Positions 14,836 to 28,717 of a DNA stretch of 38,652 nt are shown here, in pieces. The notes beneath the pieces are model-generated. The model did no database searches and had not been told where the DNA came from. It saw only the letters and a list, made by a program, of their open reading frames with translations. The first letter of the stretch is position 1. Every line of letters starts with the position of its first letter. The position numbers were made by a program, and so were the translations under genes. This DNA comes from Desulfuromonadales bacterium (GTDB taxonomy: Bacteria > Desulfobacterota > Desulfuromonadia > Desulfuromonadales > DASPGW01): contig DASPGW010000138.1 of NCBI GenBank assembly GCA_035620395.1, forward strand, positions 1 to 38,652. Reading direction: 5' to 3'.

Positions 14836-15366
14836 ATGGACAACCGCTACATCATGACCGCCTTTGGCCAGGACCGGCCGGGGATCGTCGCCGACGTGAC
14901 CAAGCTGCTGTTCGAAAACGGCTGCAACCTCGAAGAGACCACCATGACCCTGCTGGCAGACGAGTTCACCCTCATTCTGCTCTTCACCTGCCAGAACCGG
15001 GATGTCGAGGAGTTGCTGCAGCGTGAGTGCCGCCGGCTGGAGCGGGACAAGGACATCTCTGCCTTCCTGCGGCCGCTGCAGAAACGCCAGACGGCGAAGC
15101 GCGGCGACTTCGCTTCCTGCGTGCTGCACGTCGAGGGGGAGGACCAGGCGGGGATCGTCTACAAGGTCAGCCAGTACCTGGCTGAGCACGGCCTGAACAT
15201 CTGCAATCTGCAATCGACTGTCAAGGCCTCCCCGGATAGCGGCAGCGCCATCTATATGATGGACATCCACATCCAGGTTCCCGAGGGAGTCTTGATGGAG
15301 GACGTGGAAGTCGGGCTGTCGGCGGTCGCCGACGAGCTGCATGTCGACATCAGCCTCTCCAGGTAG
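14836..15366 (+). CDS. Double-ACT-domain protein, glycine cleavage repressor (GcvR)-like
   Basis: 176 residues made of two ACT domains: first MTAFGQDRPGIVADVTKLLF (about 7-80), then VLHVEGEDQAGIVYKVSQYL (about 100-176). Both have the ligand-binding Asp-x-x-Gly-Ile element, as in GcvR-type regulators and in stand-alone amino-acid sensors. There is no DNA-binding domain, so any regulatory action must be through protein or small-molecule contact. No gcv genes are adjacent. A strong AAGGAGG lies seven bases before the ATG. The upstream AT-rich gap contains TATAAA (14780-14785) but no clear -35. Confidence 0.87.
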   Translation: MDNRYIMTAFGQDRPGIVADVTKLLFENGCNLEETTMTLLADEFTLILLFTCQNRDVEELLQRECRRLERDKDISAFLRPLQKRQTAKRGDFASCVLHVEGEDQAGIVYKVSQYLAEHGLNICNLQSTVKASPDSGSAIYMMDIHIQVPEGVLMEDVEVGLSAVADELHVDISLSR

Positions 15367-15483
15367 CAGACCGCCGGGGGCGGCTCGACGAACTGGTTTT
15401 CGGCTGCTACGTATTCATTCTGTCGGCAGGAGATAACCCCCGGACGACTGGACGTTTTTCGAAAATTTATCGGCCCCTTTTGC

Positions 15484-15489
15484 TATAAT
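15484..15489 (+). promoter_or_regulatory. Candidate -10 box of the hexapeptide-repeat gene
   Basis: A perfect TATAAT, preceded by TGC (an extended -10 arrangement one base off ideal), lies 169 bases before the start codon. No good -35 is found 16-18 bases upstream. If used, transcription would begin near 15496 and include the whole structured leader. Confidence 0.45.
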
Positions 15490-15520
15490 GGACTTAGAAG
15501 AGAAGATTTAATTCATCGGA

Positions 15521-15653
15521 CTCGCTGGTGGTGTTGGATGAGTGACCCGGGTATTTCTCGGGTCGGGGCAAAAAAAGTAGATCAGTACTCTTCTCCTAGG
15601 AAGCCAGGTTCTCTGTGAACACCACTAACGAGGCGGTTTTTCCCAGGGAGAAG
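15521..15653 (+). promoter_or_regulatory. Candidate structured 5' leader / translational switch
   Basis: A long-range stem closes the leader: CTCG (15521-15524) with CGAG (15629-15632), one C.A mismatch, TG with TA (one G.T wobble), and GTGGTGTT (15528-15535) with AACACCAC (15618-15625). Inside are the hairpins GACCCG/CGGGTC (15544-15564), CTTC/GAAG around CCTAG (15590-15603) and GTTC/GAAC (15608-15619), the last overlapping the closing stem and so an alternative fold. CTTCTCC (15590-15596) is also perfectly complementary to the ribosome site GGAGAAG (15647-15653). It does not match the c-di-GMP/cGAMP (GEMM) consensus as I know it. Function as a switch is inferred. Confidence 0.5.
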
Positions 15654-15657
15654 CATC

Positions 15658-16599
15658 ATGAGACGACTGGCCCTTTTGCTTGCCATGCTGTGTTGGGCCG
15701 TGTTCGGGTTCGCTACCGCCCAAGGGCAGGAATATGGCGTGCCTCTCGACGGGTCCGAGCAGAAGGCGATGACAGAAACCTTCCAGTACGCTCTGGAGAA
15801 CAACAAGACCAATGAGGCAGCCGCCTGGGTGAACCCGGATACCGCCCGCTCCGGCACTCTGGTGCCGCTCAGAACCTTCCAGAATGCCGATGGTCAATAT
15901 TGCCGGGAATACGTTACCACCATCGTCATCGGCGGAGAAGAACAGCAGGCTTACGGAACGGCCTGCCGGCAGCCGGACGGTTCCTGGCAGATCGTGTCCG
16001 AGGGGACGTCGGCTGAATACCAGCAGGTTGTCGAAAAAAACTACTACGTTTACCCGTACGGCTATCCGGACTGGTATTATCGTTATCCGTATTACGCGTG
16101 GGATTTCTACTATCCCAGCATCTTCTTCAGCTTCGATATCGTCCACTTCAGCGGACACCGTCATTTCCATGGGCACCACTTCCATGGAACCAAGCATTTC
16201 CATGGGACGAAGCACTTCCACGGAACGAGGCAGTTCCGGGACAGCAGACAGTTCCAGGGTACGACGCAGTTTGAGGGAAGGAAGCAGTTCCGGGACAGCA
16301 GACAGTCCCAGGGTACGACGCAGTTTCAGGGAAGGAAGCAGTTCCGGGACAACAGGCAGTTCCAGGGTACGACGCAGTTTCAGGGCGGCAAGCAGTTCCG
16401 GGACAGCAGACAGTCCCTGGGCACGACGCAGTTCCGGGACAGCAGACAGTTCCGGGGCACGACGCAGTTCCAAGGCGGCAAGCAGTTCCAGGGACAGCGG
16501 TCGCACTTTGGCGGTCAGCACTTCAAGGGAAGCCAACGCTTTGACAACTCCGGCAGCGGGAACAGGGGCGGACGCGGTGGAGGGGGCGGACGCCGTTAG
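15658..16599 (+). CDS. Secreted RT0821/Lpp0805-type surface protein with hexapeptide-repeat tail
   Basis: 313 residues in four parts. A signal peptide (about 1-23) is followed by a surface-antigen-like domain (about 26-115) with ETFQYALENNKTNEAAAWVN, GQYCREYVTTIVIGG and QAYGTACRQPDGSW, matching the RT0821/Lpp0805 family. Next is a Tyr-rich stretch (128-152), then a tail (170-282) with an exact six-residue period F-x-[GD]-x-x-[QH], as in FHGTKH, FRDSRQ and FQGTTQ. A Gly/Arg-rich end (RGGRGGGGGRR) closes it. Phe falls on 16 of 18 repeat positions from 175 to 277, with Ser at 217 and 253. GGGAGA precedes the ATG and may be masked by the leader. The export domain is a family call; the tail's structure and ligand are unknown. 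Confidence 0.85.
   Translation: MRRLALLLAMLCWAVFGFATAQGQEYGVPLDGSEQKAMTETFQYALENNKTNEAAAWVNPDTARSGTLVPLRTFQNADGQYCREYVTTIVIGGEEQQAYGTACRQPDGSWQIVSEGTSAEYQQVVEKNYYVYPYGYPDWYYRYPYYAWDFYYPSIFFSFDIVHFSGHRHFHGHHFHGTKHFHGTKHFHGTRQFRDSRQFQGTTQFEGRKQFRDSRQSQGTTQFQGRKQFRDNRQFQGTTQFQGGKQFRDSRQSLGTTQFRDSRQFRGTTQFQGGKQFQGQRSHFGGQHFKGSQRFDNSGSGNRGGRGGGGGRR
16180..16503 (+). repeat. 18-bp tandem repeat coding for hexapeptides (18 units)
   Basis: Within the surface-protein gene, 18 consecutive 18-base units encode F/S-x-[GD]-x-x-[QH/S]. They group into larger units of 54 bases (three hexapeptides: FRDSRQ, F/SQGTTQ, FQGRKQ), repeated about four times; one of these units has lost a hexamer. The first units are His-rich (FHGTKH) and later ones Gln/Arg-rich. 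The repeat keeps frame throughout. It is a coding repeat and not CRISPR, since there are no unique spacers. Confidence 0.92.
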
Positions 16600-16650: not shown

Positions 16651-16917
16651 ATGATGCCGAGAAGACGTGATTACCTGTTCTTTGTCGTCGTCGGCGTCAT
16701 GCTGACCTTTCTTTTGTTTACCACATTACAGAGTGAACCTGTAAAAGTTCCCCGGGACGATACTCATCGTTCCCTGTTGGATACGGTAGCGCAGGGCGGC
16801 AGCCGGGAAGATGCAGAAAAGCAGTGTCCCGCCTGCCATGGGCCGCAGGACGTTCCATTGTCCGCGAAGCACCCCCCCAAGGAGCAATGCCTGATCTGCC
16901 ACAAGCAGCAGCTGTAG
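16651..16917 (+). CDS. Membrane-anchored diheme c-type cytochrome (small)
   Basis: 88 residues: an N-terminal membrane anchor (about 8-26, YLFFVVVGVMLTFLLFTTL) and two heme-binding motifs near the C terminus, CPACH (59-63) and CLICH (80-84), separated by a short PQDVPLSAKHPPKEQ linker that carries a His. This is a compact multiheme type common in metal-reducing and sulfur-reducing bacteria. The heme-bearing part should face the periplasm. An AAAGG lies shortly before the ATG. The next gene begins 21 bases downstream, so co-transcription is likely. Confidence 0.88.
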   Translation: MMPRRRDYLFFVVVGVMLTFLLFTTLQSEPVKVPRDDTHRSLLDTVAQGGSREDAEKQCPACHGPQDVPLSAKHPPKEQCLICHKQQL

Positions 16918-27046: not shown

Positions 27047-27075
27047 CGCGAAAATTTTACAGGTGTCCCTTTTAA

Positions 27076-27746
<671 letters not shown>

Positions 27747-27784: not shown

Positions 27785-28717
27785 ATGTCTTTTCGCCACA
27801 AACACATCCTTGGCACAGAGCAGCTTTCCCGGGAGGATATAGAACTGATCCTCGATACCGCCGACAGCTTCAAGGAGATCAACAGCCGCACGATCAAGAA
27901 GGTTCCGACCTTGCGCGGCAGGACCATCGTCAATCTTTTTTACGAGGCCAGCACCCGCACCCGTACTTCCTTCGAGATTGCCGGCAAGCGACTCTCTGCC
28001 GATACCATCAATATCACCGCTTCGTCCTCCTCGGTGGTCAAGGGGGGGACCCTCGAGGATACCGCAAAAAACATCCAGGCGATGGCTCCGGATATCATCG
28101 TCATGCGCCACGCCGCATCCGGCGCACCCCATTACCTCGCCGAACGTCTCGCCTGCTCGGTAATCAATGCCGGCGACGGAGCCCACGAGCATCCCAGCCA
28201 GGCACTGCTCGATCTGCTCACCATTCGTCAGCACAAGGGGAAACTCGAGGGGCTTACGGTAGCCATAATCGGTGATATCACTCATAGCCGGGTGGCCCGT
28301 TCCAACCTCTATGCCATGAAAAAAATGGGAATGACCGTCCGCCTGGCCGGCCCCGGCACCATGGTGCCGCCCGGCATCGAGCGTCTCGGCGCCGAGGTCT
28401 ATACCGACATGAACGCGGCAATCAAGGACGCGGACGTCATCATGATGCTGCGCATCCAGCTTGAGCGGCAAGGCAAGACCATGCTGCCGACTCTGCGTGA
28501 ATACGCCCGCTTCTACGGGCTCAACCCCAACAACCTGAAGCTGGCCAAAGAGGACGCCATCGTCCTGCATCCCGGACCGATGAACCGCGGCGTCGAGATA
28601 TCTTCCTATGTCGCCGACGGGCCGCAGAACGTCATTCTGGAGCAGGTGGAAAACGGCGTCGCCGTACGCATGGCGCTGCTCTATCTGGTTGCCGGGGGCG
28701 AGCAGGCGGAAGGCTGA
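27785..28717 (+). CDS. pyrB: Aspartate carbamoyltransferase catalytic subunit PyrB
   Basis: 310 residues catalysing carbamoyl phosphate + aspartate to N-carbamoylaspartate, the first committed step of pyrimidine synthesis. The carbamoyl-phosphate loop is [25 protein letters not shown] and [15 protein letters not shown] are family signatures, and [13 protein letters not shown] lies near the C terminus. AGGAGG lies just before the ATG. No regulatory pyrI gene is in the operon, so the enzyme is probably of the unregulated trimer type or complexed with dihydroorotase PyrC, which follows directly. Confidence 0.97.

Follow-up and report, generated by a model that had tools for sequence, protein, structure and literature searches.

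The leader and its gene

The locus lies in a window, i. e. the whole stretch of DNA that was analysed, of 38,652 nucleotides. It consists of a gene for a secreted protein, a conserved leader RNA directly in front of it, and a predicted sigma-70-type promoter (Table 1). The extended -10 element TGCTATAAT, for which no good -35 element was found, suggests a transcription start at about 15496. No intrinsic terminator was found in 15360-15700. A transcription attenuator was therefore rejected, and translational control is favoured.

Table 1. Positions of the leader elements and of the downstream gene in the window
Feature	Position	Strand	Remarks
Extended -10 promoter element TGCTATAAT	15481..15489	+	TG followed by TATAAT (15484-15489); from sequence
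Conserved leader RNA	15496..15657	+	Predicted 5' end to the base preceding the ATG, ~162 nt
P1 closing stem, 5' arm CTCGCTGGTGGTGTT	15521..15535	+	Conserved core GGTGGTG
Local hairpin P2, TGACCCGGG...CTCGGGTCG	15543..15565	+	9 pairs including 2 G-U; in the MFE fold; directly 5' of the A-run block
Conserved GGGGCAAAAAAA block	15565..15576	+	GGGCA(A/G)AAAA aligned in L027, L029 and L031; GGGTGAAAAA in L028
Switch strand / anti-Shine-Dalgarno CTTCTCCT	15590..15597	+	8 possible pairs with 15646-15653; also hairpin P3 with GAAG 15600-15603
GAAG, pairs locally with the switch strand (hairpin P3)	15600..15603	+	From sequence; predicted P about 0.25-0.3
P1 closing stem, 3' arm AACACCACTAACGAG	15618..15632	+	Conserved core GTGAACACCAC from 15615
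Local hairpin P4, GTTTTTCC-CAG-GGAGAAGC	15636..15654	+	Covers the Shine-Dalgarno region with P1 closed; -6.2 kcal/mol, P ~0.9 in the P1 state
Shine-Dalgarno region GGGAGAAG	15646..15653	+	From sequence; GGGAG conserved in all six leaders
Regulated gene, secreted 17kDa_Anti_2 (PF16998) protein	15658..16599	+	Pfam E 1.8e-9; C-terminal HFHG / FRDSRQFQGTTQFQ repeat tail

A search of 136 genomes of the order with the first 161 amino acids of the protein retrieved five close full-length orthologs (54-64% identical; genomes G030, G013, G010, G008 and G019), and, ranking below them, many relatives that were shorter or more distant. No further orthologs were present in 277 genomes of the class. The plasmid collection contained nothing of the protein but its 23-114 domain, in Azospirillum and others. 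The window's own genome (G000) carries a paralog (G000:C81:11129-11587, L057), which corresponds to the N-terminal part at 56% identity and has a TATAAT and a short leader that does not contain the element.

A small ORF at 16651-16917, downstream of the gene, starts like a membrane anchor and contains CPACH and CLICH motifs. It has no Pfam match and likely encodes a two-haem c-type cytochrome.

Homologous leaders and their predicted folds

The earlier note, which had proposed a translational riboregulator at this place, had made its case dependent on conservation in related genomes. Homologous leaders do exist there. They were found before all five orthologs, in four other genera of the order, between a TATAAT at the corresponding place and the ATG. 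In the following, L027 designates the leader of the window and L028, L029, L030, L031 and L032 the orthologous loci, L028 and L029 being congeners. The order of elements in the ortholog leaders is TATAAT, CTGGTGGTG, the GGGGCAAAAAA block, CTTCCC(C/T)C, GTGAACACCAC, GGGAG and ATG.

With the Shine-Dalgarno sequence removed, the Smith-Waterman scores of the window against L029, L031 and L032 lay above all 500 shuffles, and the same was true for the pairs L028-L029, L028-L031, L029-L031 and L031-L032. The score of the window against L028 exceeded 499 of 500 shuffles. The leader of L030 was only marginally similar to that of the window (36/500 shuffles). Between the congeners, 121 of 152 leader positions (80%) agree, whereas this is the case for only 20 of 38 fourfold degenerate sites (53%; p 0.0015).

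A covariance model (R1) was built from L028, L029 and L031 only, i. e. with the window excluded. It recovered the window leader (15511-15632, E 3.4e-5) as the sole match in the 3.3-Mb genome and also matched L030 and L032 in the ortholog loci, with E values of 0.002 and 0.006. Weak R1 matches elsewhere were taken as chance in the cases examined: one (L068) lies inside a coding frame, and another (L065) is followed by no gene for several hundred bases. A model of all six sequences (R2) found one locus in each of six of the 136 genomes of the order, always before this gene; as its training members match by construction, what is informative is that no other credible match was obtained in the 136 genomes. 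The only other R2 match below 0.05, in G039, lies inside a coding frame. Neither the R1 nor the R2 search returned a member before any other gene. Searching the 136 genomes with the leader by blastn gave no convincing homolog, because the leaders are too diverged and become visible only by comparison at the orthologous gene. The plasmid collection held no match to the leader, and the viral contigs held no relative.

The genes flanking the locus in the window were not found beside the orthologs. Thus the leader follows the gene, and its retention is not just a by-product of conserved surroundings. These comparisons make it very probable that the leaders are homologous. A conserved leader RNA retained with one gene in six genomes (five genera) of a single order is, at the level of sequence, well supported.

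Relatives of the gene in family f4 of the order do not have the leader. They carry the motif GTAAACC-N15-17-CGTCTAA instead, which is also visible in L033, L035, L036, L037 and L041. Its exact form occurs once each in two genomes, at G044:C14:39753-39781 (-) and G130:C102:49466-49494 (+), both times before the gene. The motif looks like the promoter of an ECF sigma factor, so that the gene appears to have changed its mode of control from one family to another.

As regards the fold, the long-range stem reported in the earlier note was confirmed letter by letter: its 14 pairs in 15521-15535/15618-15632 are 13 Watson-Crick pairs and one G-T, interrupted by one C.A mismatch. The score of this stem, P1, was matched by 5 of 300 dinucleotide shuffles when the window leader was taken alone. 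For a second alternative proposed there, GTTC with GAAC, the coordinates were off by one, as GAAC occupies 15617-15620 and the span is 15608-15620, not 15608-15619.

RNAalifold recovered P1 unprompted from a plain MAFFT alignment of three orthologs, together with a second stem, P1b, and c-c', an inner stem in the shape of a long hairpin with interruptions. P1 can form with 10 contiguous and four additional pairs in the window, with nine pairs in L031, eight in L032, seven in L028 and six, in a shifted register, in L029; in L030 it is found only as an unrelated candidate of six pairs. The inner stem c-c' comprises 8-11 pairs in L028, L029, L030 and L031, with exchanged pairs in L030, and the window replaces it with the local hairpin at about 15543-15565. 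Another helix, a-a' (TTTTTTGCCC / GGGCAAAAAA; 9-13 pairs), is possible in L028, L029 and L031 and absent from the window. It crosses P1 and the inner stem and must therefore be a pseudoknot or a third alternative. The window thus has neither a-a' nor c-c' as they occur in the orthologs, and the leaders do not share one uniform fold.

In an alignment of the leaders fitted to the model (A5), 88.8% of the cells were paired, versus 79.2% after shuffling and 45-63% with slid partners. Two-sided changes were seen at six pairs, a number reached by 9 of 500 shuffles, the basis being six sequences and an alignment that was itself fitted to the model. Compensatory changes, the kind of evidence that the earlier note had named as a check, thus occur at few pairs in the stems and do not extend to the pairing of the anti-Shine-Dalgarno strand with the Shine-Dalgarno sequence, which showed none among the six leaders. 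The latter is explained by the fact that the Shine-Dalgarno sequence can hardly vary. The covariation is suggestive, i. e. it speaks for the fold and is not proof of it.

Predicted mutually exclusive pairings at the ribosome site

The pairing between CTTCTCC (15590-15596) and either GAAG (15600-15603) or GGAGAAG (15647-15653), on which the earlier note had based its proposal, is exact, and with CTTCTCCT and GGGAGAAG the pairing to the ribosome site lengthens to eight pairs. In the window alone a match of this length was equalled in 78 of 1000 dinucleotide shuffles. The total folding energy of the window leader is ordinary (z -1.4), and for the six leaders z lies between -1.6 and +0.6. Taken by itself, the window sequence thus exceeds chance only slightly, and it is the related leaders that give the case its weight. 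In all six leaders a pyrimidine strand is located 52-57 nt upstream of the Shine-Dalgarno sequence, with which it can form 5-8 pairs.

P1 encloses the switch strand but not the Shine-Dalgarno sequence. P1 and the duplex of these two strands are therefore mutually exclusive unless a pseudoknot is formed. In the window both states have nearly equal predicted energy: on 15496-15720, P1 has a probability of 0.49 and the anti-Shine-Dalgarno duplex one of 0.43. This balance depends strongly on the 3' end, i. e. on how much coding sequence is included. Once the transcript reaches 15632, P1 is predicted with a probability near 0.99; with about 35 nt of coding sequence included, the Shine-Dalgarno sequence is masked by the anti-Shine-Dalgarno strand in the predicted ensemble.

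The predicted ensembles of L028, L029 and L030 are dominated by the anti-Shine-Dalgarno state, and the Shine-Dalgarno sequence is masked more strongly than in shuffled sequences, only 2-3 of 150 of which were as masked. The window is a borderline case (12 of 150 shuffles as masked), and in L031 and L032 masking was no stronger than in the shuffles. Furthermore, in the P1-closed state of the window the Shine-Dalgarno sequence is not open. It is still contained in P4, which at -6.2 kcal/mol is weaker than the anti-Shine-Dalgarno duplex at -10.7 kcal/mol. This coverage in the supposed ON state weakens the simple switch model. Mutually exclusive folds of nearly equal predicted energy are nevertheless the behaviour expected of a switch, and to this extent the predictions moderately favour one.

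The predicted 5' end of the transcript, AGAAGAGAAGA (window 15496-15506), repeats the GAGAAG of the Shine-Dalgarno sequence and can form seven pairs with the anti-Shine-Dalgarno strand. Counterparts of this pairing exist in L028 (seven pairs) and L029 (six pairs), and it could act as an anti-anti-Shine-Dalgarno.

Possible functions of the leader

A possible interpretation is that the sigma-70-type promoter gives rise to a leader of about 162 nt with two mutually exclusive folds. In the ON state, P1 would form first during transcription and trap the switch strand (15590-15597), leaving the ribosome site at most in a weaker local hairpin. In the OFF state, P1 would open and the switch strand would pair with the Shine-Dalgarno sequence. 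Some factor (a small molecule or ion, a protein, or an sRNA) could shift the balance and thereby set the translation of the surface protein. We consider a translational switch the best explanation of the leader, with a probability of roughly 0.55. That the folds form in the cell, that translation depends on them and that a signal selects one of them, we infer from the pairing potentials. The idea of a translational riboregulator in the earlier note thus holds in part: a conserved, structured leader with a strand able to mask the ribosome site is found in all six genomes, whereas masking beats the shuffles in only three of them and P4 covers the ribosome site of the window. Riboregulator is a fair guess as a label, riboswitch no more than a possibility.

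Alternatively, the leader could be conserved but static, i. e. stabilise the mRNA or fix a low translation rate without responding to any signal. This would agree with the ordinary folding energies, with a ribosome site that is covered in both states of the window, and with a switch pairing that does not covary. However, a static leader would account neither for the closeness in energy of the alternatives in the window nor for the position of the switch strand at the same distance in six leaders, and a conserved leader of 150 nt exceeds what a static masking hairpin needs; we regard this explanation as unlikely. Orphan riboswitches have been found via leaders with built-in alternative pairings, and as a special case of the translational switch the leader might represent a new class of this kind, in which P1, P2, the A-run and the inner stem constitute the aptamer and a ligand stabilises P1. 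The conserved bases are grouped in blocks that flank the stems or lie outside them (GGGGCAAAAAA, GTGAACACCAC), the element occurs as a single copy per genome before one gene, and comparable rare candidates, the yjbM and nifV motifs, have been described in Geobacter (PMC11109978). Yet no metabolite is known for the downstream protein, subgroups differ in their internal fold, and no member precedes any other gene. A riboswitch class confined to a handful of genera within one order, in which ligand-stabilised P1 would free the Shine-Dalgarno sequence of a gene for a repeat-rich envelope protein, is thus a tentative idea to which we give a low probability.

The co-occurrence of leader and gene across differing neighbourhoods suits a gene-specific control and could also point to a protein, possibly the gene product itself, whose binding to the leader would close or open the ribosome site. 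The exported product, however, is an unlikely RNA binder. CsrA would be the usual suspect, but none was found in G000, G010 or G008, and the leaders show no enrichment of GGA motifs, whose counts are about at or below those of shuffles; control by CsrA was dropped for these reasons, and protein-mediated control in general appears unlikely. Translational coupling to an upstream ORF via an ATGA overlap was suggested by a frame of about 43-44 codons in L028 and L031 which extends to a TGA overlapping the ATG. But this frame is interrupted by stop codons in the window, L028 and L029 differ in it by a frame-shifting indel, and neither its start codon nor its Shine-Dalgarno sequence is conserved, so that such coupling is very unlikely. 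The chances of an RNA thermometer are slimmer still: an envelope gene whose leader masks the ribosome site would be in line with it, but the predicted accessibility of the Shine-Dalgarno sequence is nearly flat from 10 to 60 C and in the window changes in the wrong direction, from 0.16 to 0.04.

GEMM riboswitches (c-di-GMP / cGAMP) are common before surface and cytochrome genes of Geobacter. Like them, the window leader precedes an envelope-type gene, and in the same bacterial group. Yet, in line with the earlier note, which had seen no resemblance to known riboswitch motifs, none of the 4227 families of Rfam 15 matches the window leader or the five orthologous loci at the gathering score, and GEMM did not match at any threshold used. 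With translational riboswitches of the sequestor / anti-sequestor type it shares mutually exclusive pairings in which the ribosome site takes part and the lack of an intrinsic terminator; unlike them, it contains no aptamer known from Rfam. It is a leader RNA of a known kind that is absent from Rfam 15. No published description of it was found in the open-licence literature.

Closest among published systems are rare riboswitch candidates with three to six members, some of them with a Shine-Dalgarno or anti-Shine-Dalgarno sequence in the fold, which have been reported from Geobacter and other genera (PMC11109978). Among these, the yjbM and nifV motifs are rare orphan candidates of Geobacter which resemble the present leader in their narrow distribution (three to four representatives), a complex fold next to or over the Shine-Dalgarno sequence and the association with one gene; they differ in that the genes code for a (p)ppGpp synthetase and a homocitrate synthase, the comparison being one of descriptions and not of sequence or structure (PMC11109978). 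The purS motif of Corynebacterium likewise has six representatives and a loop that was proposed as an anti-Shine-Dalgarno, but it belongs to a different phylum and a different gene, and was again compared by description, not sequence (PMC11109978).

With a defined gene partner, six alignable members and a small size, the leader is directly testable. If a ligand exists, it would reveal how the poorly understood PF16998 surface-protein family is controlled in this group. If there is none, the leader would still be an example of a rare leader that is kept with one gene despite differing neighbours.

Elsewhere in the window, at 27064-27178, the Rfam PyrR binding site was matched at exactly the gathering score (54.0 bits). 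It overlaps the start of a pyrR-like ORF (27135-27746), which is followed by an ORF resembling aspartate carbamoyltransferase (27785-28717).
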